A stretch of DNA of 51,916 bases from Deltaproteobacteria bacterium (GTDB taxonomy: Bacteria > Desulfobacterota > Desulfomonilia > Desulfomonilales > Desulfomonilaceae): assembly GCA_016875095.1 (NCBI GenBank), contig VGSG01000019.1, forward strand, positions 1 through 51,916, given 5' to 3'. Below the pieces are notes generated by a model. The model saw only the letters and a program-made list of their open reading frames with translations, did not search any database and had not been told where the DNA came from. Shown piece after piece: positions 23,862 through 43,247 of the stretch. How positions within the stretch are numbered: position 1 is the first letter of the stretch; every line of letters starts with the position of its first letter. A program made the position numbers and the translations under genes.

Positions 23862-25118
23862 CTAGGAGAATACCAGGGCTTCGTAAACCAGATCCGACAC
23901 CAATTTCACATCCGTTTCCAATTCAAATTCGTCGTTGAGGTCCTTGAGCTGTGCGAGGCACATCTCGCAGGCTGTGGCCAGGATGTCCGCGCCGGCGGCG
24001 CGTATCTGGTCCGCTTTCACCCGCGAAGTCATCATGCGGAACTCGGGCTCCTGCGCGATAACAAGGCCGCCTCCGCCACCACAGCACCAGTTTTCGGAAC
24101 GGTTGGGGATCATTTCGACGAAACTGTCTGTGAAAGCCCGAATTACGTTGCGTGGGGCCTCATATACGCCGCTATTTCGCGCAATCTGGCACGGGTCGTG
24201 GTACGTAACGGTCCCTTCGATTGAGGACTTGTCCAGCTTGATGCGTCCCTCGGTCAGGTAACGGTTTACAAGCTCCAGGATCGAGATCACTCGGAACGAG
24301 CGCTTGCCGATAATGTGCTTCATAATACGGTACGCGGTTCCGCACTCACAGATCACCAGTTCCTTGACGCGCAGCCGCTCGGCTTCGGCCACGATGCGAC
24401 CGTATATCTGTTCGCTCATGTTCGCGTTGCCCGCGAACGCGCCGAAGTTGACCGCCTCAAAGTAGCTCAACGACCAGCTTTCTCCCGCCGCGTTCAAGAT
24501 CGCTGCGCCGGACGCAATAGAAGGCTTCTCCACCATCGAGACAAAGAGAATATTTGCGCCCTCTTTGTCCAGAGGAACGATCTCCTTCCCTTCGAGGCTC
24601 GGATACTTCTCCAGGAGTTCAGCCTTCACCCCGGTCAGCTCCTTTTCGAGCTTTTGTCTGGTCAATTCGAGATTCTTAGCTTTGTCGATCTCCCCGCGGG
24701 CACGCATGGTGAGCGGTTTGGGGTCCATGTCCATGCCGATGAGCAGCGCTTTGGCAATGGCTTGAATCTGTTGCGTATCAATACCGAAAGGACAATAGAC
24801 CATGCAGCGTCGGCAGCCGGTGCAGGAGAATGCGGTTTCATAGAGTTTGTCCATCCAGGCTTCATCCAACGTCTCCGCATCGTTCAGCCAGGGCGCGATC
24901 TTGCCCGTAACACGGAAATAATTCTCGAACAGCCTGCGAACATTCTGGGCTCGACCCACCGCTGAGAAACGAATATCTCTGGTGGACGCGTAAGCATGGC
25001 AGGCGTCAATGCAAGTCCCACATCGGGAGCAGTTTTCCAGATAGAGCCGCACAGCCCGGTTCATCTTGTCAGCCATTAGTGTGAGTAGGTCTTGTCTCTT
25101 CGACGCTTCCATAATCAT
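23862..25118 (-). CDS. HdrD-like iron-sulfur protein with CCG domain (HmcF/TmcB/DsrK type)
   Basis: 418-residue cytoplasmic electron-transfer subunit. Two 4Fe-4S ferredoxin motifs are intact: CSRCGTCIDAC (Cys30, 33, 36, 40) and CTGCRRCMVYCP (Cys99, 102, 105, 109). The C-terminal cysteine-rich CCG domain is complete (DPCQ..., WCCGGGGG, CEMC), as in heterodisulfide reductase HdrD. A preceding CCG-like half keeps only CECG and seems degenerate. The start at 25118 overlaps the stop of the cytochrome b gene as ATGA and follows GGAGAGG; the longer reading frame upstream is out of register with the neighbour and not coding. It likely exchanges electrons between the quinone pool, via the cytochrome, and a thiol or ferredoxin partner. 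Confidence 0.87.
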   Translation of the reverse strand: MIMEASKRQDLLTLMADKMNRAVRLYLENCSRCGTCIDACHAYASTRDIRFSAVGRAQNVRRLFENYFRVTGKIAPWLNDAETLDEAWMDKLYETAFSCTGCRRCMVYCPFGIDTQQIQAIAKALLIGMDMDPKPLTMRARGEIDKAKNLELTRQKLEKELTGVKAELLEKYPSLEGKEIVPLDKEGANILFVSMVEKPSIASGAAILNAAGESWSLSYFEAVNFGAFAGNANMSEQIYGRIVAEAERLRVKELVICECGTAYRIMKHIIGKRSFRVISILELVNRYLTEGRIKLDKSSIEGTVTYHDPCQIARNSGVYEAPRNVIRAFTDSFVEMIPNRSENWCCGGGGGLVIAQEPEFRMMTSRVKADQIRAAGADILATACEMCLAQLKDLNDEFELETDVKLVSDLVYEALVFS

Positions 25119-25849
25119 CCTCTCCGCAGCGCATTCAGAGGCACCGAAAAGCACGTGTGCATGAGATTGCTGAATGGCAGAAATATCAACAGTAGGTTCA
25201 CGAGCAAGACATGCGTCCCGATTACCACGTAATGGGTTCCGGGCAAGAGCTTCAGAGGGTCCGCGAAACTCAAGGTGAGCAAGCCGGTCATATATTGCCC
25301 AAACTCTTGCTTGGTAATGACAAAGCCCTGCTCTGTCCACGAATTGCCCCAACTGATCACATCTCCGGTGATGGCGATGCTCAGGAGGAGCACGAGCAGC
25401 AGATAATCCGAAGCGACCGAAACCTCGCGCACCGGGCCCTTGAAGCGTCGCAACAGGAAATAGGCGAGCGACACGGTGAAAAAGACCCCCACCGAGCCGT
25501 TGCCGAGCATGTGCTGCGATTCCGCTGACAGTATGTTTATCTGTGGCAGAATGTCCAGGTGTGCGACCACAAGAACCAAGAGAGAAACATGAAAGATCAT
25601 GAGAAAGACCCAAAAGACCGGCTGGTATCGGCGGATAGAGGGCATGGTGAGCGCGTCCAAGAACGCGGCGCCGAGGCCCGCACCAAGAGGGTCTTCGGGC
25701 GTTTCATCGTCCCGAAATATCCGCAAGGTGTGGGGCGGCCTCGGTTCACGAACGACCTGAGCGATCCTGACGACAATCCCCACAAGACACCAGATCACCG
25801 ATATGTAGACCATAGGGACCATAACGAAGTACCAGAATGCGTTCACCAT
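25115..25849 (-). CDS. NarI-like membrane cytochrome b subunit (HmcE/DsrM type)
   Basis: 244 residues with five membrane helices (about 1-22, 72-93, 112-130, 146-164, 205-228) as in the nitrate reductase gamma family. Candidate haem-ligand histidines sit in IFHVSLLVLVVAH (second helix) and in YVVIGTHVLLVN and FSNLMH near the end. It should oxidise or reduce menaquinol and pass electrons to the HdrD-like subunit encoded 4 nt into its stop. The start at 25849 has GGAG 8 nt upstream and begins directly with the first helix. The size pair (244 plus 418) resembles HmcE/HmcF more than DsrM/DsrK; no periplasmic cytochrome c or ferredoxin gene adjoins. Confidence 0.84.
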   Translation of the reverse strand: MVNAFWYFVMVPMVYISVIWCLVGIVVRIAQVVREPRPPHTLRIFRDDETPEDPLGAGLGAAFLDALTMPSIRRYQPVFWVFLMIFHVSLLVLVVAHLDILPQINILSAESQHMLGNGSVGVFFTVSLAYFLLRRFKGPVREVSVASDYLLLVLLLSIAITGDVISWGNSWTEQGFVITKQEFGQYMTGLLTLSFADPLKLLPGTHYVVIGTHVLLVNLLLIFLPFSNLMHTCFSVPLNALRRG

Positions 25850-26207: not shown

Positions 26208-26540
26208 CTACTTCGTCATCAGGTCCTGTTTGGTCACGTTCATGACTCTGAGGGCCTTGAGTTGGTCGCCCTTCTGGTCATAAGCAATCCTCAGGATATC
26301 TCCAGGCGCGGGCGTAATGCCCACGAGAGCTTCGGATATGTCGAAAGTAAGCTTCTTGCCTGTGGTCTTACCGTACTTGTTTTCCTTGGAAATGCTTGTG
26401 TCATATTCATCTATGCTGACCGACTTTCCTGCTTCAAATGCCAGGCACTTGCCCTGCGCCACTTCGGCGGCCGACGCAGGGGCCGCGAAAGCCAGAATGA
26501 GCATCGCAGTCGCCACTGATGCCAGGATTTTAAATCTCAT
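26208..26540 (-). CDS. Small exported protein of the TauE operon
   Basis: 110 residues with a clear signal peptide (about 1-24, ending APASAA-E). The mature part of about 86 residues is beta-rich and contains one cysteine in AQGKCLAFEAG, then LTFDISEALVGITPAPGDILRIAYDQKG, shown here in pieces as LTFDISEALVG and PGDILRIAYDQKG. No named family recognised; a small periplasmic beta-barrel is plausible. AGGAGATATACG precedes the ATG at 26540, and an in-frame extension to 26579 is rejected because it lies upstream of this site. The gene is 43 bp after the TauE gene and is probably the last of the operon. Role unknown, perhaps binding the exported anion. Confidence 0.7.
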   Translation of the reverse strand: MRFKILASVATAMLILAFAAPASAAEVAQGKCLAFEAGKSVSIDEYDTSISKENKYGKTTGKKLTFDISEALVGITPAPGDILRIAYDQKGDQLKALRVMNVTKQDLMTK

Positions 26541-26583
26541 CGTATATCTCCTCTTGTCATGGTGAGCTTTCAATCTCAAGTCG

Positions 26584-27612
26584 TCACGCGGTGAGCCGTT
26601 CGTTCCCCTTCTTGGCTCTCAATTCTTCCGCAGCGCCCTTGAACATGATCCCGCAGATGTATACGCAGATGGCGCCGACCGCGCCCAGAATGACGACTGT
26701 CGCAGCCGCGTCGATCTTGAACTGCTTGAGGATGACCGAAATCATACATGCGAAGACCGCCAAGCCGAAGGCTATCCGGATCCCGTACCCCTTTGCGTAC
26801 TTGGTGGCCACTGTGCCGATCTGCGCGCCGATGGCCGCGCCGCAGAGCATGACGAACACCGCCCAGATCTCGATACGTCCCTTCACGCCATAGGTGAATG
26901 TTCCGTACAGACCGGAGATCATGACTTCAAACAGGTCGGTGCCGACCGCGATGTGAGTAGGACAGCCCACGAGGTAGACCAGAGCGGGCATGCGAAGCAG
27001 GCCGCCGCCAATCCCCAGGAAGCCGGCCAAGACACCGGTCAAGAAGCTCACGAAGATCGGGAGCCACATGGAACAATAGATCCCGGCAACTTTGAAATGC
27101 ATCATGGGCGGAATCTTGATACTATGAAGCGTTTTGTACCAGGTGAATCCAACGGCGCCGTGCTCGTCCACGACGCCGGCCTTTTTCTTCTTCATTGCTT
27201 TGCGGTAATCGGCAAAAACCATCAGCGCTATCAGGGCCAAAACCACCACATAGACCCATCGAACCACCGGTCCGACGCGTCCGATGCGCTCAAGCCACAT
27301 GACGATCTGCGCGCCGCACTCGATGCCGATCACGGTCCCGATGATCATGATCAAACCGAGTTTGTAGTCCACGTTGCCGAACTTTGAGTGCCTGAATGTG
27401 GACACCATCGACTTTCCCGCGATGTGGGCGATATCGGAGCCGATCGCGAACGCCATGGGAAAGCCAAGGATGTTCAAGCCCGGGGTAACCATCCACGCGC
27501 CGCCCATTCCGAAGAAACCGCCGATCACGCCCACCGAAAACCCGATGAGCACCAAGCCGGGCCAAAAGATGTCAACGCCGGCGATGGGCATATACATGTA
27601 CCAGAATTCCAT
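26584..27612 (-). CDS. TauE/SafE-family sulfite or sulfonate exporter
   Basis: 342-residue integral membrane protein with about eight helices. The internally duplicated family pattern is visible: GFFGMGGAWMVTPGLNILGFP in the first half and GFLGIGGGLLRMPALVYLVGCPTHIAVGTDLF in the second, both ending in a conserved Gly-rich loop and a small-residue helix. The family exports sulfite, sulfoacetate or related anions, or takes up C1/C2 sulfonates. A basic cytoplasmic loop (RKAMKKKKA) separates the halves. AAGGAGGATCGGATC supports the ATG at 27612; an in-frame extension to 27678 runs through that site. It sits between the small membrane and the small periplasmic protein genes. The substrate is not determined by sequence. 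Confidence 0.87.
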   Translation of the reverse strand: MEFWYMYMPIAGVDIFWPGLVLIGFSVGVIGGFFGMGGAWMVTPGLNILGFPMAFAIGSDIAHIAGKSMVSTFRHSKFGNVDYKLGLIMIIGTVIGIECGAQIVMWLERIGRVGPVVRWVYVVVLALIALMVFADYRKAMKKKKAGVVDEHGAVGFTWYKTLHSIKIPPMMHFKVAGIYCSMWLPIFVSFLTGVLAGFLGIGGGLLRMPALVYLVGCPTHIAVGTDLFEVMISGLYGTFTYGVKGRIEIWAVFVMLCGAAIGAQIGTVATKYAKGYGIRIAFGLAVFACMISVILKQFKIDAAATVVILGAVGAICVYICGIMFKGAAEELRAKKGNERLTA

Positions 27613-27643
27613 GATCCGATCCTCCTTGTGCCTTCCTTGGGTA

Positions 27644-27943
27644 TCAGTGTTCGACGATCTTTCTGGACGTGAGATCAAGCCCTGTCATCTTCATAATCTG
27701 GTCGGTGATGAACCCCAGCGTCACACCCAGAAGCCCGGTGAAAATGGTGCACCATAGGCCGAACATGAACGGGTCCCTGTTGTACAGATCAACCCACCAC
27801 CTGCTGACGCTCCACTCAACCATGCGCTTGTCAGCCACGACGATGAGCATTTCTGCTTTGCCCCCGGCCGCGACGGCCAGATCGGGGATAAACACTGCAA
27901 CCGCGGTGATGAAGATCACCAGAAGAGTCATTATTCGCCTCAT
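27644..27943 (-). CDS. Small two-helix membrane protein upstream of the TauE exporter
   Basis: 99 residues. The first hydrophobic segment (about 4-27, ending LAVAAGG) looks like a signal peptide or helix; then a periplasmic stretch rich in Trp and Arg (KRMVEWSVSRWWVDLYNRDPF) and a second helix (about 60-82, GLWCTIFTGLLGVTLGFITDQIM) with a polar tail. AAAGGAGG precedes the ATG at 27943; another in-frame ATG at 27979 also has GGAG and would add 12 residues. The gene is 31 bp before the exporter and so first in the operon. No family recognised; an accessory subunit of the exporter is the natural guess. Confidence 0.68.
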   Translation of the reverse strand: MRRIMTLLVIFITAVAVFIPDLAVAAGGKAEMLIVVADKRMVEWSVSRWWVDLYNRDPFMFGLWCTIFTGLLGVTLGFITDQIMKMTGLDLTSRKIVEH

Positions 27944-28422
27944 TATCGAGAACCTCCTTTCAGGCGCTTCTTGCTGCATAGCTTCTCCTAATAATCGTTG
28001 TCCGCGCACTGCAACCTCCGTACCACACGATTATCTTGGGCAAAGCCATCGCTATGCTGCTTCAAGAGGGACCCCGGTTGACTGTGCTCGCCGCGTTCCA
28101 CCGCGGAATTGTCCGTGGTTCCTGTCCGAATTCTTTACAGAGTGTAAAGAGTCCTAACGACTGCGATCGTGCGAGGGTTTACGCAAGCTCCTGCGGCAAC
28201 ATGTGTGGGCGCGCTTTCGAATGAGAAAGTGAGGCAGGCGCAGCGACTTCCGCATCCGTCTCTCCGATTCCCGACCGTGCTAGGACGTGCTATGGTTCAT
28301 GATAGGGAGTGACCCCGAGTTACGTCTCCCCGGGGGCATGTTTATTGCCGCGCGAACCGGAGATTCGGAATCGGGCGGTGTGTTGCAACGCTTGTTTCAC
28401 GGCTCTCCTGGTCAAAGACACG
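27944..28422. other. Divergent intergenic region
   Basis: No gene is supported here. It should contain the promoters of the TauE operon (minus) and of the PEP-synthase-like gene (plus). The one visible symmetrical site is TCTTTAC-AGAGT-GTAAAGA (28132-28150), a 7-bp inverted repeat that could be an operator. An in-frame extension of the plus-strand gene back to 28309 exists but has no ribosome site. Confidence 0.5.
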
Positions 28423-31071
28423 ATGAAGGAGCTTATCTCAAGCCTCTGGAATAGAATTGGGCCGATGGTGGGTTTCCGTCGGCCCCCATCTCGAAAATCC
28501 GTGTCTCGGGTATTCAAGTTCAAGTACAATTGCTTCAAGGACCTGCTGGCTTCCAACACTGAACTACTTAACATCATCACCGATTTTGAAGTGAAACTTC
28601 GCGGCCAAACGGTGTTCGGCATGTCCTACGTCAGGTCGCAGGCCACGCGCGCGGTCTTCCACGCGCTCCGTATGGTCAAGAGTCTGGACGACCTCTCCAA
28701 TCACGCTTACCCGCTGCTTTTCGACGTTGTGGACAGGATAAACCTAGCCATAGAGGAAGAATTGGGTAAGAAAAAAGAGCTGCCTCTCAGGGAGCTGGTC
28801 CTACCGTACTCCAACATTACCAAAGAGATGGCGGATTGGGTGGGGGGTAAGAGCGCAAATCTGGGCGAATTGCTCAACAAAGCTCGGATTCCTATTCCCG
28901 AAGGCTTTGCCATCACCACCCGCGCATACGAGCTCTTCCTGGAAGAAAACGACCTTGCGGAAGAAATCAACCGTGTCCGCCAGGACCTTGACCCGGAAAA
29001 CCCCAACGCAATCAACACCGCCAGCGAACGGATTCAGCGCCTGATCATCTCCGCGCTGGTTCCCGTCGCCCTTCAAGAAGCCATATACGGTGCGTACGAA
29101 CGGATGGTGGAAGATATCGGGAAGCGCAGAGGCGACAAATCCCGGCGGCCTCCGGTCGCGTTACGCAGCAGCGCCATTGGTGAAGACAGCGACCTCTCCT
29201 TTGCCGGACAATACCTGTCGATCCTGAACGCGCCCTACGAACGGATCGTCGAAACGTACAAGATGATTCTAGCCAGCCTGTATACCCCGAGGGCCGTCTC
29301 CTACCGTCTCAACAAGGGCATCAGAGACGAGGATATCGCCATGAGCGTCGCATGCCTGGAGATGGTCAGGTCCAGCGCCAGTGGCGTGATGTACACCCGT
29401 AACCCTTCCAATCCCTTAGAAGAGGAAATCCTCATCACGGCCGTCTGGGGACTCGGGCCCTATGCGGTGGACGGGATTATCACCCCTGATACTTACTTGG
29501 TTTCGAAGGATGAGCGCTTTCACATCAAGGACATGGTCGTTTCTCACAAGCCTGTGCAGCTCCTAGCAGCGGTTGACGGAGGTTTGCGAGAGGAGGCGGT
29601 TGAAAAGGATTTACAGGATCGCGCATGTCTGACACCGGATCAGATTACCAGGTTGGCCGGATATGGGTTGAGCCTTGAGAATCACTACAATTATCCCCAG
29701 GATATCGAATGGGCCTCGGATGAGCACGGACACGTGTTGATCTTGCAGACAAGGCCTTTGCACCTGGAAGAGATTCAACGAGAGGGGCTCAAAAGCCTAC
29801 CGCTCGTTCAAGGGTACAAAGTGTTGGTGGAGGACGCTGCTATCGCTTCCCCGGGTGTCGGTTGCGGCCCGGCAATCCATGTGCGCTCCGACGAGGATCT
29901 CCAGCGCTTTCCCCGAGGGGGCGTACTGGTTGCCAAGCACTCCAGTCCTCAATTTGTGATCGTCATGCAGAAGGCGGAGGCCATAGTGACCGATGCCGGC
30001 AGCGTCACCGGTCACATGGCCTCCCTGGCCAGGGAATTCGGCATACCGACTCTCCTGGGCGCCCGGGTCGCCACGGACGCAATTGCGCCGAACATGGAAA
30101 TCACGGTGGATGCGTACTCGGGACGGGTCTATCTGGGACGAGTCCCTGAAGTCCTGGGGCTGCGGAGAACCAGGGAATCGCCCATGAAGGAGACGCCGAT
30201 CTATCAAACCCTTCGCCGCATCGCAGACTTGATCGTTCCTCTTGACTTGGTCAATCCGCGCGCCGCGAACTTCGCGCCGGAGTATTGCAAGACACTCCAC
30301 GACGTAATGCGCCTGGCGCACGAATTGTCCTACCAAGAGATGTTCCAGATAAGCGACCTGGTCTCAGACACCACCGGCGCGGGAGCGCTCAAGCTGGCGG
30401 CGCCGATTCCGCTGGACCTGCACATCATTGATCTGGGTGGCGGCCTCCAAGGGATTTTCCTGGGCGCCCGGCGGGTAACAGTTGACGAAATCGCTTCCGT
30501 TCCTTTGAAGGCGCTTCTGAAAGGCATGCTGCGCGAAGACTTGCGTGACCAGGGGCCTCGGCCGGTGGACCTGGGCGGGTTCTTATCCGTGGTGAGAGAA
30601 CAAATGCTCTCCCCCGCGAATCTGGCTGATCGCTTTGGCGATCGCAGTTACGCGATCATTTCCGACAAATACCTGAATTTCAGTTCACGCATCGGATATC
30701 ATTACAGTGTGCTCGATTCCTATTGTTGCGAGACGGTGAACAAGAACTACATCACTTTCTCGTTCAAAGGAGGAGCTGCAGACGTGATCAGGCGAAACAG
30801 ACGAGCACGAGCGCTCGCTCTAATTCTTGAAGGGCTGCAGTTCGAAGTGGAGGTGAGGGAAGACAGGGTTGATGCGCGGTACAACAAGTACGAAGAGTCC
30901 GCGACCGAAAAGCAACTCGATATGGTCGGCCGTATGCTCCAGTACAGCCGCCAAATGGACATGCTCATGCAGTCAGAGGCTAGCGTGGTTATATTTGCGG
31001 AGACGTTTCTCAGTGGGAAGTATAATTTTGACACCGAATTCATGGCTCAACTTGCCAACAGACACAACTGA
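28423..31071 (+). CDS. PEP synthase-like phosphotransferase with unrecognised C-terminal domain
   Basis: 882 residues. After a helical N-terminal region (about 1-125) comes the pyruvate-phosphate-dikinase ATP-binding domain: VGGKSANLGELLN (about 140), IPEGFAITTRAY, RSSAIGEDSDLSFAGQY (about 248), SGVMYTRNPSNP and PQDIEWASDEHGHVLILQTRPL ending near 450, here cited in parts. The swivelling phosphohistidine domain follows with VTDAGSVTGHMASLAREFGIPTLLG; its His is about residue 531. The PEP/pyruvate-binding TIM barrel expected next is absent. Instead about 280 residues (600-882) have motifs such as IDLGGGLQGIFLGAR and SYCCETVNKNYITFSF that I do not recognise. Hence ATP probably phosphorylates a His, then an unknown acceptor. 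The ATG at 28423 is the first that keeps the conserved region; ribosome site weak. Confidence 0.75.
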   Translation: MKELISSLWNRIGPMVGFRRPPSRKSVSRVFKFKYNCFKDLLASNTELLNIITDFEVKLRGQTVFGMSYVRSQATRAVFHALRMVKSLDDLSNHAYPLLFDVVDRINLAIEEELGKKKELPLRELVLPYSNITKEMADWVGGKSANLGELLNKARIPIPEGFAITTRAYELFLEENDLAEEINRVRQDLDPENPNAINTASERIQRLIISALVPVALQEAIYGAYERMVEDIGKRRGDKSRRPPVALRSSAIGEDSDLSFAGQYLSILNAPYERIVETYKMILASLYTPRAVSYRLNKGIRDEDIAMSVACLEMVRSSASGVMYTRNPSNPLEEEILITAVWGLGPYAVDGIITPDTYLVSKDERFHIKDMVVSHKPVQLLAAVDGGLREEAVEKDLQDRACLTPDQITRLAGYGLSLENHYNYPQDIEWASDEHGHVLILQTRPLHLEEIQREGLKSLPLVQGYKVLVEDAAIASPGVGCGPAIHVRSDEDLQRFPRGGVLVAKHSSPQFVIVMQKAEAIVTDAGSVTGHMASLAREFGIPTLLGARVATDAIAPNMEITVDAYSGRVYLGRVPEVLGLRRTRESPMKETPIYQTLRRIADLIVPLDLVNPRAANFAPEYCKTLHDVMRLAHELSYQEMFQISDLVSDTTGAGALKLAAPIPLDLHIIDLGGGLQGIFLGARRVTVDEIASVPLKALLKGMLREDLRDQGPRPVDLGGFLSVVREQMLSPANLADRFGDRSYAIISDKYLNFSSRIGYHYSVLDSYCCETVNKNYITFSFKGGAADVIRRNRRARALALILEGLQFEVEVREDRVDARYNKYEESATEKQLDMVGRMLQYSRQMDMLMQSEASVVIFAETFLSGKYNFDTEFMAQLANRHN

Positions 31072-35990: not shown

Positions 35991-36110
35991 TTAACGAAAG
36001 TGCCAGCGTCTTAGTAACCGTCCCTCCACCTGCGGATCACGCAGGTAGGGATTTCCTTGAATGTCCGCTCCCACGCTGCTGAAGAACCCCGCAATCTCTT
36101 CGTTTGTCAT
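35991..36110 (-). CDS. 39-residue mini-ORF coupled to hsdR
   Basis: Its ATG (36110-36108) overlaps the hsdR stop as ATGA, the same coupling seen elsewhere in the window between genuine gene pairs. The product starts [19 protein letters not shown], continues with a Leu/Arg/Pro segment and ends in RRWHFR before TAA. It is hydrophilic, without membrane helix or known motif. It could be a small accessory protein of the restriction system or the remnant of a longer gene truncated at the island edge. No Shine-Dalgarno is visible, so it would depend on re-initiation. Confidence 0.4.
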
Positions 36111-39100
36111 AGTTTTTCAGCCCAATCTCGGCAAAGGACTTCCGCCTGCTCTAAGACAAGCTCCGTAGCGCGAGCCTGCTTATCCGGCGGATAGCCATGC
36201 CGACGAAGAATTCGCTTTATCATAACTCGCATCTGGGCTCGGACGTTCTCACGGAGCGTCCAGTCGATGGTGACATTGTTACGGACCGCCCCAAGCAGTT
36301 CTTGGGCAATGGTTCTCAAGACCTCGTCGCCAAGAACCTTCACAGCGCTGTCGTTTACCTCCAGTGCGTCATAGAAGGCTATTTCATCCTCTGAAAGGCC
36401 GAGCTTTTCGCCCCGACGGTCAGCGTCCCGAAGTTCTTTGGCGAGAGCGATCAGTTCTTCTATTACCTGAGCAGTCTCAATGGCCCTATTCTGATATCGG
36501 CGGATTGCGTTTTCGAGCATCTCTGCAAAGGACCTTGCCTGAACAAGGTTCTTCTTCCCGCGTGTCTTGATCTCGCCCTGTAATAGCTTGCGAAGCATTT
36601 CAACTGCCAGGTTTCGTTGCGGCATGCCGCGCACTTCGGCGAGGAACTCGTCAGAAAGAATCGATATATCCGGCCTTTTCAGGCCCGCTGCGGCGAAAAT
36701 ATCCACCACTTCATCCGACGACACAGCCTTCGACACGATCTGGCGAATTGCGTGCTCGATCTCTTCAGGACTGCGCCGATCAGTACCGGCCCTTTTAATG
36801 AGTACGGCCTTCACAGCCTGGAAGAAAGCCACATCGTCTCGAATCTTCAGCGCCTTCTCATGGGGAACCGCCAACGCGAAGGCCTTTGACAGCTCGGCCA
36901 CCTCTTTCGCCAATCGGTTCTTGCCGTCGTTCTGGGCTAACACGTGTTCCTGAGCCATAGGAAGCACCGAAAGCCGTTCCTTTGGGCCGCCGCTAATCCA
37001 CGCCGACCAGTCAAACCCATGGAAGATGTCGCAGCAGACCTCATAGCGCTCTAACATGAAAGCCACAGCCTCTTCCTGGTCGACGGCCGTTTGTCCCTTG
37101 CCCCCGCTTTCGGTGTATGTGGCCAGAGCAGACTTCAGTTCGTGGGCAAAGCCCAGGTAGTCCACAACTAAACCGCCCGGTTTGTCTTTGAAAACCCGGT
37201 TAACGCGTGCGATAGCCTGCATGAGGCCGTGGCCGCGCATGGGCTTATCCACATACATCGTGTGCAAGCAAGGTGCGTCGAAACCTGTCAACCACATGTC
37301 GCGCACAATGACTATTTTGAATGGGTCTCCGGCCTCTTTGAAATGTTTGGCCAATTCTTCCCGGCGTAACTTGTTGCGAATGTGGGTCTGCCAATCTAGC
37401 GGGTCCGATGCTGAACCCGTCATAACGATTTTGATGATTCCCTTGTCATCGTCTTCATGGTGCCAGTCAGGCCGAATCGCCGTGATGGTCTTGTAGAGTT
37501 CGACGCAAATGCGACGGCTCATGCAAACGATCATCGCCTTGCCGTCCATGGCTTCTAGTCGCTGTTCGAAGTGTTCCACTAGATCCTGGGCAATCAGCTT
37601 AAGCCGCTTCTCCGTGCCGACCAGGGCCTCAAGTTGGGCCCACTTGGTCTTGAGCCGCTCTTTGTGATCGACCTCTTCGCCCTCGGTAACCTCCTCGAAC
37701 TCGTCGTCCAGTTTCGGCTTCTCTGACTCGTCGAGAGCAAGCCGCGCAAGGCGACTCTCGTAGTAGATTGGGACGGTAGCTCCATCCTTCACGGCCCGCT
37801 CGATGTCATAGATGCTTACGTAATCGCCGAACACGGAGCGGGTGTTCTTGTCTGTCAATTCTATGGGCGTGCCTGTGAATCCGATGAATGAGGCATTGGG
37901 CAAAGCCTCTCTCATGTGCCGAGCAAAGCCGTCAATGAAGTCATATTGGCTGCGATGGGCCTCGTCAGCGATCACCACGATGTTCCTTCGATCCGACAGC
38001 AGTGGATGTTGGTCTTCGCCCTCTGTCGGGAAAAATTTGTGGACCGTCGTAAAAACAACGCCACCAGAGGCGGTCGTTAGCAACTCCCTCAAATTAAGGC
38101 GGCTCTGCGCTTGTACTGGCGGCTGGCGCAGCAGTTCATGGCACCGCGAGAAGGTTCCGTAAAGCTGGTCATCCAAGTCGTTGCGGTCAGTGATAACCAC
38201 CAGTGTCGGGTTCTCCATCGCTGGGTGTAGGACAATCCGCCCAGCGTAGAACGCCATCGTCAGACTCTTGCCCGACCCCTGGGTGTGCCAGACGACCCCC
38301 ACCCGTTTATCACCCCCAGCTCCAGCCGCTCGGATGGTCGAATCCAGGGCTAGGTTCACTGCATGATACTGATGGTATCCTGCCATTTTCTTGACCAACA
38401 CACCACCGCCGACATCCTCGAACACGATGAAGTGCCGGATCAGATCCAGGAAACGTCGCTTGTCGAAGACGCCCTCCAGCACGACCTGTAGCTGCGGGAG
38501 ATGAGTGTCCGCCAGTTCTTCGCCCTCGATGGTCCGCCACGGCATGAACCATTCGCTATTCGCGGTGAGAGTGCCGATCCTGGCCTGAATACCGTCAGAG
38601 GCCACCATTGCCTCGTTGAACGCGAACAGGGAAGGGATTTGTTGTTTGTACGTTTGGAGTTGATTGAAGGCTTTCCAAATATCAGCGTCTTCGTCGGCAG
38701 CATTTTTGAGTTCAATCACCGCAACCGGCAGACCGTTGATGAACAGCACCACGTCCGGTCGACGCTCATGACGATCCTCAACCACCGTATACTGATTCAC
38801 GGCCAGAAACTCATTATTATCCGGCTCATCGTAGTCGAACACTCGAACCAGGTCGCCTCCAATCGAGCCGTCCCTCCGCTGATACTCGACCGGCACGCCC
38901 TCGACCAGGTATTTGTGGATGACATGGTTGTTCGCCACCAGTGACGGCAAGTCAGGCCGGGTCAGCTTTCGAAGAGCATCCTCTAAAGCATCCGAAGGGA
39001 CCTGCGGGTTGAGGCGCTGAAGTCCCTGTCGCAACCGACGTTTGAGCACGACCTGGCCGTAGTCCTCACGCTCTGCATCCGGCGTATCCGGCGCGATCTC

Positions 39101-39187
39101 GGGGCCGTGGAGGACGACGTACCCTAGGTTCTGCATCCAGCCCAGCGCGGCTTGCTCAACTTGTGACTCCGTAAAGGATTGGGCCAT
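36107..39187 (-). CDS. hsdR: Type I restriction enzyme, R (endonuclease/translocase) subunit
   Basis: 1026-residue motor and nuclease subunit. The PD-(D/E)XK nuclease lies in the N-terminal 230 residues ([20 protein letters not shown]: Asp, then Glu-Leu-Lys). The SF2 translocase follows with Walker [12 protein letters not shown] (about 325), Walker [10 protein letters not shown] (about 425), motif III FTGTP and motif VI IARVNR (about 690). The C-terminal third ([13 protein letters not shown] onward) is the helical domain that docks on the M2S core. The start at 39187 follows AGGAAGG; an in-frame extension to 39259 is rejected since it crosses a hairpin (39226-39263) and lacks a site. It lies 100 bp after fic, the only sizeable gap in the operon. 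Confidence 0.95.
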
Positions 39188-39225
39188 CGTTGTACCTTCC
39201 TGGCTCACCCGTTGAACACCAAGAC

Positions 39226-39263
39226 ATTTGTGTATCAATAAGTCCCGCTTGTGAGACACAAAT
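39226..39263 (-). promoter_or_regulatory. Hairpin in the fic-hsdR gap
   Basis: ATTTGTGT (39226-39233) and ACACAAAT (39256-39263) are perfectly complementary, spanning a 22-nt loop, in the leader of hsdR. Without a U-run it is not a terminator by itself; it may attenuate or process the message so that hsdR is made less than hsdMS. Confidence 0.4.
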
Positions 39264-39287
39264 CTGCTTGTCGCGCACCGGTGAGTT

Positions 39288-40400
39288 TCAAAAGACCTCG
39301 TGCCCCTCCACGATGTTCAGCAATTCAGGAAAGCAGACGATGGCCGCCCGCCGGCCCGAGGCCGCCCGCAGTTCCCGCAGGAGCCCGCCATCCCGCGCCA
39401 GCCGGACAATCCGGTTTGCCGTTGGCTTGGGAATTGTCGCGGTCGTGACGAAATCGGACACCTTAAAGACCGGACGGCTGAAGAACCAGTCCAGTGCCCG
39501 AATCGCGTGCTGCGAATGCGTCATGTCGGTTATCCACTCCTTCTTCTGTCCGTACAGATCAAGGATGGCTCTAGCTTTCGTCTCATTGTCCTTCGCCTGC
39601 TGCGTCACAGCGCCCAGGAAGAACGCGGACCATCCGGTCCAATCCCCATCACGCGATACGGCGAGAAGGCGCTCGTAGTACTCCTCGCGCCTAGCCTCAA
39701 GGTAGGCGCTGACATAGAAATCCGGGCTAGTCAGCAGCCGCTTTCCCACGAGGAACAACGGGACCAGCAGTCGACCGATTCGCCCATTGCCGTCCAGAAA
39801 TGGATGGATCGCCTCGAACTCGGCGTGCAAAATCGCCAGCTGCACCAACTTGTCGGGCGCGTCGTTATGGAGATATTCTTCCCATGCCGACATCAGGTCC
39901 GGCACGCGATGAGCGGCGGGCGGCACGAATCGTGCGGTCTCGACTGTGCATCCCGGGGGACCTATCCAGTTGGGTACTTGACGGTACTCGCCCGGCGTCT
40001 TGTTCTGGCCCCGCACTCCGTCCAACAACACCCGGTGCGTATCGCGCACCACACGCTGTGAAAGCGGTAGTTTCTCCAGCAATGCGACCGCGTGCCGCAT
40101 GGCAAGTCGATAGTTGAGCACTTCCAGGATGTCGTGCCGCTTCTCGCCCGTGGCCGTCTCTTCAGCCGCTTCAAACTTCAACACCTCGCCGAGAGTCGCT
40201 TGCGTTCCCTCAATCTTGCTGGACAATACCGCTTCTTGCGACGTTAAGGGCCCGAGAAGCACCTGAGCGTTGGGAATGCCCTGCAGCACGCCATCGTATC
40301 TTGCGACCGCTGCATTTGCTGGACCTATGAGGGGCAACAGCCGAGACCAATCAAGCGTCTGGGGCGGGAACTGCCCCTCGTGATACACGACAGCAGCCAT
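39288..40400 (-). CDS. fic: Fic-domain protein (AMPylator) within the restriction operon
   Basis: 370 residues. The Fic active-site motif [12 protein letters not shown] is complete (His199 to Arg210), so nucleotidyl transfer, usually AMP to a hydroxyl of a target protein, is expected. An autoinhibitory motif (S/T)xxxE(G/N) is present N-terminal to the core as SSKIEG (residues 60-65), placing it in class II with intramolecular control by Glu64. A winged-helix-like C-terminus (about 300-350, [21 protein letters not shown]) may bind DNA. The gene starts in the hsdS stop as TGATG, so it is part of the operon. Fic genes occur within many type I loci, but their role there is not settled. The target is unknown. 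Confidence 0.92.
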
Positions 40401-41692
40401 CAGAATTGCCTCCCCACGATTCGCTCAGCGTCCGTCACCCGCAGTTCGCCTGAGATTAGCTTTGTTAGGAGGGCGTCTCGTAGAGTAGCAAGAGTGCTGA
40501 TCTGATCCTGGTTTGCCAAACGACGCTCATCCAGCGCGGCGACGATTGTCGCATGCCTCATTTGCAGGTCTGGGGTCGGATAAAGGAAGTCAAAGCCTTC
40601 CAGAATGTTTGTATTGAGCGAAGGTCTTGTGGTCCCCAGCGCGTAGCTCTCTACCATAGCAATGAATGCTGGGTGTTGGAAAACCGAGGCAAGATATCGT
40701 GGTTGCAGAATATTCCAATCAGAGACCCTTACCCTGAGAGTTTGACCCGAAATCATCCACCCAACGTGACGAGAATGTATGTAAGCGGAACGTCCCACGG
40801 CCCCTACTCGCGTGAAAACTATGTCTCCTCGTTTCAAACGATATCTCTCTAATTCTGCCACCTTGTGCCAACCAACGAGCGGCATCCCATCTTCTACAAT
40901 TGCTCCATTCACAATGTTCTTGACCAGCAGCAACGGAGCCCCTTCCTCTCGATAGTCCGATGCGTGGAGATTGCTGCCGAAAGGACCAGTAATCACACAA
41001 TTGGAATCAAGCGGAAAAAGTCGCTTCAGACTGGTTATCGTCCATCCCCTCGGAATGTCACCCAGTTCAGAATCCTCAAACGCGTCAGGGAAAAGAGCCG
41101 CGATTTCCGGTTTCAGGCCGTGAGGCTGCTTACCGGCTGCCTTGGCGTGGACGGGATCGAAATCCACAAACCAGCTTTTGAAGATCGCTCGCGCCATGGC
41201 CTCCAGTGTCTCATTCATGCGACGGTTTAACTCGATCTTGTCGTCCAATGTTCCCAGGATGCACGCGATGGCCTGTTGTTCCCGGAGAGGGGGGGCGACA
41301 ACCGGGATTCGGTTCATACTCCCTTGTGTTAGCTTGGGCATCGTAGAACCGGTCAGATATCCGCTGATGTCAGTGACGGCCAGGGCATACATCAAATAGC
41401 GACTGCTGGCCTGATCATTTCCACGGACTACGTGGGCATGGTTGTTCACCCAAAACTTTCCAGTCGCCATGAATGCGATTGGTGTCTTACGGGTCCGTAA
41501 GTTTTCGCCATCCTCAGCTATAAGCAGATATTCGCCATTAAAGAGGTATTTATCGACATGATCGACGATCCCGGAGGCTCCGTAGTACGGATATGGTCCT
41601 GTTGTGCGGTCCTTTTCCTTGACAGCCACACGGACACTATCGAAGTTCTCGGTGAGCTTACCAAGCGGCCGTTTTTTCCACTCATCCGCCAT
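40400..41692 (-). CDS. hsdS: Type I restriction enzyme, S (specificity) subunit
   Basis: 430-residue DNA-recognition subunit that dictates the target sequence of both methylation and cleavage. Two target-recognition domains are each followed by a conserved helical repeat: TRD1 about 5-150, then [37 protein letters not shown] (cited in part, [18 protein letters not shown]) and TRD2 about 220-370, then [40 protein letters not shown] at the end ([16 protein letters not shown]). The start at 41692 overlaps hsdM by 11 nt and has GGAGG upstream; the longer frame continuing into hsdM is an artefact of the overlap. The recognition sequence cannot be predicted from sequence alone. Confidence 0.94.
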
Positions 41693-43247
41693 AGCCGATG
41701 TCCTCCAAGTTGGCCCAGATAATCTGATCAAGCTTCTCGGATTGCTCGGTTTGTTCACGGAGTTGCGCTGCCAGTCTGGCCATTTTCTTTTCGAATGGCT
41801 CGCCGTCCTCTTCGACTTCAGCCGCTCCGACATAGCGCCCCGGCGTGAGGATGTGGTTGTGATGGCGGATATCGTCCAGTGTGGCATTCCTGCAAAAACC
41901 GGGGATATCTTCATAGTCCCCGGCAGACTCATCGCCCCGCCAGGCGTGGTAAGTGCTGGAAATCTTGTGGATGTCTTCGTCAGTCAACTCGCGGTGAACG
42001 CGGTCCCTCATGGTGCCCAGCTTGCGGGCATCGATGAAAAGTGTTTGACCGCGCCGGTCGCGAAAGCGGCCATTCTTTTTGTCTCGTGCGACGAACCAGA
42101 GGCAGACGGGAATCTGTGTAGAATAAAAGAGTTGACCGGGCAGCGCCACCATACAATCCACAAGGTCGGCTTCGATAATGGCCTTACGGATTTGGCCCTC
42201 GCCGGACTGATTTGATGACATGGAACCATTGGCCAGGACGAATCCTGCCAAGCCTGTCGGGGCAAGATGATGGATGAAGTGCTGGACCCAGGCGAAGTTG
42301 GCATTTGAAGTGGGAGGTGTGCCGTATTTCCATCGCTTGTCGTCCTTGAGCAGCTCCCCGCGCCAGTCGCTGTCATTGAAGGGCGGATTGGCCAAAACGA
42401 AGTCAGCCTTGAGGTCTGGATGCAAATCCCGATGAAAACTGTCCGCGTGTTCCTTGCCAAGATTGCCGTCGATGCCACGAATGGCGAGGTTCATTTTGGC
42501 CAGTCTCCAGGTGGTGTGGTTCGACTCCTGGCCGAAAATACTGACAGCAGCCTTCGCTCTTCCTCCGTTACCGTTACCACTGGCGTGAGCCTTCACAAAT
42601 TGAACCGACTGGACGAACATCCCACCTGAGCCGCAGCAGGGATCAAAGACGCGACCCTTGTACGGAGCGAGCATCTCAACCAGGAGACGAACGACGCATC
42701 GGGGAGTATAGAACTGGCCGCCCTTCTTGCCTTCTGCGCTGGCGAACTGGGAGAGAAAGTACTCGTAGACTCGGCCAAGCACGTCCTTGGTCCGATTCTC
42801 CTTGTCGCCCAAGCCGATGTTGCCGATCAGATCGATGAGCTGGCCGAGGCGCTGCTTGTCGAGCCGAGGGTGCGCGTATTCCTTGGGAAGCACGCCCTTT
42901 AAGGTGGGGTTGTCACGTTCGATGGCCAGCATAGCGTCATCGACGATCTTTCCGATTGTGGGCTGCTTGGCGTTGGCCTGGAGGTGGGACCATCGGGCCT
43001 CTTTTGGCACCCAGAAGATATTGACGGCGCGGTATTCGTCGGGGTCTTCGGGGTCGGCTCCCGAAGCGCGTTCCGCTTCGAGTGTGGCGTGCTGTTCTTC
43101 GAACGCGTCGGAAATGTACTTGAGGAAGATCAGGCCCAGCACGACGTGCTTGTACTCGGCGGCATCCATATTCGAGCGCAGGGCATCCGCAGCTCGCCAC
43201 AGTTCACTTTCAAACCCGAGATTCGCCCCGTTGTTTTCCTTGGCCAC
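41682..43247 (-). CDS. hsdM: Type I restriction enzyme, M (DNA methyltransferase) subunit
   Basis: 521-residue adenine-N6 methyltransferase. The N-terminal helical domain begins [20 protein letters not shown]; the SAM-binding motif I is [16 protein letters not shown] (about residue 200) and the catalytic motif IV is NPPFNDSDW (about 290), so the enzyme is intact. It forms the M2S methylase with HsdS and protects host DNA. The start is GTG at 43247 with AGGAGAG upstream, one base after the stop of the XRE regulator gene. All genes from the regulator to hsdR are contiguous, so regulation at the promoter at 43558-43585 should govern the set. Confidence 0.96.

Follow-up and report, generated by a model that had tools for sequence, protein, structure and literature searches.

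Several enzymes are known to combine an ATP-grasp domain with a swivelling phosphohistidine domain. In PEP synthase (pyruvate, water dikinase), the two domains occur in this order together with a PEP/pyruvate barrel (PF02896). In rifampin phosphotransferase (RPH), HpeHI and PpsAB, the swivelling histidine serves an acceptor other than pyruvate (PMC4844700, PMC12167813). HpeHI, CreHI and phenylphosphate synthase carry the ATP-grasp and swivelling domains on separate proteins, and their acceptor domain is RPH-like. Finally, VadK (Rv1127c) from mycobacteria is a truncated, PPDK-derived phosphohistidine protein for which a regulatory role has been proposed (PMC12636432), and it appears to set an example of a PPDK derivative with a regulatory function.

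In Desulfovibrio vulgaris and D. alaskensis, insertions in the DVU0251-DVU0245 gene cluster result in nitrate resistance (PMC4001038). This cluster codes for a TauE permease (DVU0251), DVU0250, a PtxB-like protein (DVU0249), a kinase (DVU0248), a receiver (DVU0247), a PPDK-like protein (DVU0246) and a phosphatase (DVU0245), and the authors proposed a leaky thiosulfate transporter, or thiosulfate uptake (PMC4001038). Our literature search for such a dikinase gene found no other publication.

Domain layout of the window protein

The window, by which we mean the whole stretch of 51,916 nucleotides that was analysed, encodes a PEP-synthase-like dikinase of 882 aa at 28423..31071 on the + strand. 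The gene was read from the ATG at 28423, and the open reading frame spans 28309-31071 (+), being open from a GTG at 28309. The first-pass annotation had described an intact PPDK-type ATP-binding domain and a swivelling domain with a TGH motif and a histidine at about residue 531, and both were recovered by Pfam. The PPDK_N ATP-grasp domain covers residues 139-448 (28837..29766, +; E 6.8e-92) and the PEP-utilizers mobile domain covers residues 496-567 (29908..30123, +; E 3.1e-19), with His531 (codon 30013-30015, +) located within the motif VTGHMAS. A further domain of about 125 residues, which had not been flagged, was found at the N-terminus (28423..28797, +); it is predicted to be all-helical and is conserved across the family, but has no known family. 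No Pfam match above the cut-off was obtained in residues 1-125 or 600-882.

Among 111 full-length relatives, the residues of catalytic type in the ATP-grasp domain (K143, R248, E254/D255, D427/E429, Q442 and R444) are each kept in at least 95%, F38 of the N-terminal domain in at least 97%, and His531 in 110 members. The sole exception, L091:12411-15230, has Gln in place of the phosphohistidine and is possibly an inactive or regulatory copy. The full-length predicted model matched PEP synthase, HpeI and RPH in Foldseek searches through its ATP-grasp and swivelling parts. The predicted ATP-dependent autophosphorylation of His531 is well supported by homology to the dikinase domains, and we rate this chemistry as already known and the acceptor domain and genetic context as apparently new.

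The swivelling domain is followed by a C-terminal domain at residues 600-882 (30220..31068, +), in which both IDLGGGLQGIF and SYCCETVNKNY, the motifs picked out by the first-pass annotation, are located. No Pfam family was found for this domain among 36 members, no NCBIfam match for the C-terminal piece alone, and no sequence relative in the PDB with either a single query or a 36-member profile. A cryptic PEP barrel was ruled out by the lack of a Pfam match to PF02896, the absence of a barrel from the predicted model and hhalign comparisons to the PPDK and Enzyme I barrels of the same genome, which gave probabilities below 1%; the earlier statement that no TIM barrel follows the swivelling domain thus holds. 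The AlphaFold2 model is a mixed alpha/beta structure of moderate confidence (pLDDT 71, pTM 0.67). Since the best Foldseek E-value was 0.06 and the best VIA-align Z-score was 5.0, among many unrelated folds, we refer to it as having no recognised fold rather than a new fold. For a glutamine-synthetase or guanido-kinase-like fold, the Foldseek search of this model gave weak rows for arginine kinase, which we do not take as evidence of a match.

Thus, neither structure prediction nor the domain-only profile search, both proposed in the first-pass annotation, placed the roughly 280 C-terminal residues in a recognised fold or family. The accompanying idea, that a PEP-synthase module here acts on another acceptor, is supported, in that neither a cryptic barrel nor a family with a known acceptor was found for the domain. 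His626, Asp627 and His633 are invariant in all 111 full-length members, and the domain resembles an active site in this respect. H760 and D846 are kept in 110 of the 111 members, and R630, N775 and R794 in at least 97%. Taken together, these residues are conserved as would be expected of a catalytic or metal site.

The comparison to the described dikinases can be made at the level of whole proteins. PEP synthase is the nearest match in NCBIfam, at about half the curated score (TIGR01418, 365.5 bits as compared to a cut-off of 739.75; NF005057, 377.1 as compared to 598), and PEP synthases in the PDB align best, over residues 126-579 only. The order of the ATP-grasp and swivelling domains is common to both, whereas the window protein lacks the barrel and has in addition the N-terminal helical domain and the C-terminal domain. 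The score for pyruvate, phosphate dikinase was 69.3 bits against a cut-off of 843.45, again with no barrel, and that for RPH was 213.9 against 999. Like RPH and other small-molecule dikinases, the window protein combines the two modules with an acceptor domain not related to pyruvate, but in RPH the acceptor domain lies between the ATP-grasp and swivelling domains, whereas in the window protein the swivelling domain follows the ATP-grasp domain directly and the acceptor domain comes last; the two acceptor domains have no sequence similarity. As in HpeHI, CreHI and phenylphosphate synthase, the module seems to be redirected to another acceptor, but both domains reside on one 882-aa protein, unlike the two-component layout of HpeHI and PpsAB. 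VadK is truncated, whereas the window family has a dedicated and highly conserved extra C-terminal domain. Judged by the features compared, the window protein is a member of none of RPH, HpeHI, PpsAB and VadK. Adjacent, separate ATP-grasp and swivelling genes in the HpeHI and phenylphosphate synthase layout were observed elsewhere in its own genome (L008 and L006, on contigs C43 and C15), and these gene pairs possibly encode aromatic dikinases.

Distribution and genetic surroundings of the family

We surveyed 297 genomes of one phylum, the Desulfobacterota, and identified the C-terminal domain in 107 of them, with up to nine family copies per genome and eight or more in some. In the family around G076, 101 of 149 genomes carry the domain. 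The own genome of the window encodes paralogues with 66%, 38% and 35% identity, along with two fragments at contig ends. The dikinase module was matched in every one of the 115 proteins that contain the C-terminal domain, and this constant fusion argues that both parts function together. By these homologues, the window dikinase is a member of a large, often multi-copy, phylum-wide and uncharacterised family. A phage origin, based on a weak match to phrog_33695 (E 5e-4, 47 residues), was rejected, as it was supported neither by tblastn against phage records nor by a scan of viral contigs, and a search for plasmid carriage gave no match.

The distribution of the family tracks that of dsrA, partly through shared ancestry. 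The dsrA gene was strongly present in 144 of the 297 genomes, and 102 of the 107 carriers of the C-terminal domain have it (odds ratio 72), a genome-level figure that is inflated by shared ancestry. The five exceptions are assemblies of 62-80% completeness. A fairer figure is obtained at the level of taxonomic families: at least 37 carry the C-terminal domain, and dsrA was present in each of them within the sample.

In the window, the dikinase gene is divergent from a gene for a TauE/SafE-family permease (26584..27678, -; PF01925, E 6e-42), which is a recurrent partner of the family. A small membrane-type protein of about 100 aa, here called C8 (27644..28009, -; HMM score 116 bits), has a signal-like N terminus and a hydrophobic segment; no Pfam family matched it above the cut-off, homologues were identified at L058:14329-14643 and L050:213-509, and its gene sits between the TauE and dikinase genes in many loci. 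Beyond TauE lies a gene for a small exported-type protein (26208..26579, -) whose sequence weakly resembles the C-terminal end of DUF4881 (PF16222, E 0.0013, below the cut-off), a lipoprotein family found at the corresponding place elsewhere. C8, TauE, DUF4881 and a membrane-anchored protein of about 270 aa form a recurrent set in other loci; the latter and C8 may be unrecognised transporter subunits. No receiver or kinase gene was found beside the window dikinase, so that for this copy both would act from elsewhere in the genome.

Other genes in the window include one for an HdrD/GlpC-type Fe-S oxidoreductase with 4Fe-4S and cysteine-rich CCG domains (23862-25613, -), just past the TauE and DUF4881-like genes; this gene did not reappear in the related loci that were compared. 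There is also a Type I restriction-modification operon (36107-43247, -) that encodes HsdR (36107-39259) and HsdM (41682-43247) and encloses a Fic-domain gene (39288-40400).

We built HMMs from recurrent neighbours and compared 90 member loci to 20 random windows from the same genome set. A TauE-type permease was located within 5 kb of 49 of the 90 members, as compared to none of the random windows (Fisher p 1.4e-6), and at this same distance a single-domain receiver was found for 57 members, as compared to one random window (Fisher p 1e-6). For 45 members the receiver gene was no more than 300 bp away, and the acceptor Asp and the Lys are kept in 49 of 49 adjacent receivers. Sensor kinases were found near 59 of the 90 members and in 4 of the 20 random windows (Fisher p 2e-4). 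Because the HMM seeds came partly from the counted loci and the random control was small, Pfam was also used; in the own genome, four of eight TauE stretches lie beside family members, with about 0.02 expected per neighbourhood (p ~3e-6). The TauE linkage recurs across many separate clades, and no recurrent catabolic genes were detected in the family neighbourhoods. One neighbour cluster ("cluster 4") was dropped since its ORFs are antisense to TauE, and another ("cluster 9"), probably likewise antisense, was left out.

Some subfamilies depart from this pattern. Members in L042, L111, L113, L114 and L115 belong to a subfamily with a C-terminal tail of about 190 residues, which in most of them is weakly similar to 3-keto-disaccharide hydrolase or galactocerebrosidase lectin domains. 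The member at L112:6824-10270 has a C-terminal rhodanese fusion and is followed by a gene resembling a ChrA-type chromate/sulfate transporter, an assignment made by reading the sequence and not by a profile search; the neighbour is possibly a further link to oxyanions. Neither TauE nor receiver genes were found near the lectin-like and rhodanese-tailed clades, which argues that transport control is not the whole story. In L065, L069, L077 and L096, two or three paralogues are arranged in tandem, often with only a receiver gene in between.

The nitrate-resistance cluster and a proposed role of the dikinase

Four genomes (L098, L083, L089 and L086) were found to share one gene order, in which TauE is followed by a PF12974 binding protein, a kinase, a receiver of 119-120 aa, the family dikinase and a dual-specificity phosphatase, although not every gene is contained in each stretch analysed. 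The gene kinds and their order are the same as in DVU0251-DVU0245 and Dde_0597-0605, and the dikinases of these clusters carry the C-terminal domain. From this synteny we infer that DVU0246 belongs to the family. Published as 2235 bp long, DVU0246 falls short of its orthologues of about 820 aa, which may reflect a start-site call. At the threshold used, close homologues of the dikinase of this cluster type were found, one each, in 110 of 288 genomes of one family. They represent a different subfamily, with about 33% identity to the window dikinase, which is accompanied only by TauE, C8 and the DUF4881-like gene.

Insertions in DVU0251 (TauE), DVU0247 (receiver) and DVU0246 (dikinase) each abolish nitrate sensitivity, whereas mutants of the downstream phosphatase DVU0245 in D. 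vulgaris are not resistant; the fitness data from pools and single mutants agree incompletely (PMC4001038). Since DVU0246 lies downstream of the TauE gene and DVU0245 mutants are not resistant, polarity does not explain the resistance of the dikinase mutants, and a polar effect on TauE is unlikely. Were phosphorylation of an imported substrate the only task of the dikinase, its loss should leave the entry of nitrate intact, and the resistance of the mutant therefore favours a requirement for the dikinase in transport.

The linkage to TauE and two-component genes, together with the phenotype of the syntenic mutants, is better matched by control over the transport of oxyanions than by a stand-alone role in small-molecule metabolism. 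We tentatively propose, while giving it slightly less than an even chance, that the protein is a phosphohistidine dikinase under two-component control that enables TauE-type anion transport in sulfur-respiring bacteria. The transported oxyanions are probably sulfur oxyanions; the acceptor and the regulatory role of the dikinase are putative. By established domain chemistry, ATP bound in the ATP-grasp domain would phosphorylate His531. The swivelling domain would then carry the phosphoryl group to the C-terminal domain, where the invariant His, Asp and Arg residues may constitute a second active site that phosphorylates either a small molecule or one of the transport system's proteins. A sensor histidine kinase would set the activity of the dikinase through the single-domain CheY-like receiver, which perhaps docks on the N-terminal helical domain. 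The linkage, the co-occurrence with dsrA and the published mutants of the syntenic subfamily suggest that the output would be needed for the activity of the TauE-family oxyanion permease. As the adjacent receivers have no output domain, the simplest order would be from sensor kinase to receiver, dikinase, acceptor and active TauE transport. In a stronger version, which we consider rather doubtful, the receiver-switched dikinase would directly gate or energise TauE uptake of sulfur oxyanions by means of a new catalytic domain and instead of energisation of the ABC or PTS type.

We also considered that an S- or P-containing anion or organic sulfonate imported by TauE is phosphorylated, and thereby trapped, in the cytoplasm, with the two-component proteins regulating only the operon. 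All characterised small-molecule relatives are built on these two modules (PMC4844700, PMC12167813), TauE genes lie close by, one cluster type includes a periplasmic phosphonate-type binding protein, and the invariant residues of the C-terminal domain are enzyme-like. However, loss of the dikinase equals loss of the permease in nitrate resistance (PMC4001038), although nitrate entry should not depend on a kinase acting downstream, many adjoining receivers have no output domain and could not alone regulate transcription, and the neighbourhoods are devoid of recurrent catabolic genes, making trapping a fairly unlikely explanation. It is unlikely, too, that phosphoryl groups are exchanged directly between His531 and the receiver Asp, which would make the dikinase a histidine kinase of non-canonical type with the C-terminal domain as its sensor or output. 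The close spacing of receiver genes with a kept acceptor Asp at half of the members would fit such a relay, and VadK acts as a histidine kinase (PMC12636432), but ordinary sensor kinases that could supply the receiver are usually present (59/90), not every member has a receiver in its vicinity, and the catalytic-type residues of the C-terminal domain are conserved beyond the need of a sensor. It is highly improbable that the C-terminal domain has taken over the binding of pyruvate and that the product is still PEP: the first two modules have the PEP synthase order and find their best matches, in sequence and in fold, among solved PEP synthases, but there is no homology to the barrel, a separate full-length PPDK, barrel included, is encoded in the own genome, and up to nine copies per genome beside signalling and transport genes are not what is expected of a housekeeping PEP enzyme.

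The findings describe a predicted ATP-dependent phosphotransferase family of sulfate reducers, phylum-wide and often multi-copy, with an uncatalogued C-terminal domain. If the control of sulfur-oxyanion transport by the dikinase is true, it would add to dissimilatory sulfur respiration a layer, so far missing, that connects sensing to uptake, and would represent a recruitment of the dikinase module for transport control. It would also offer a mechanism behind nitrate resistance in the Desulfovibrio cluster, which is so far unexplained and is relevant to souring control.
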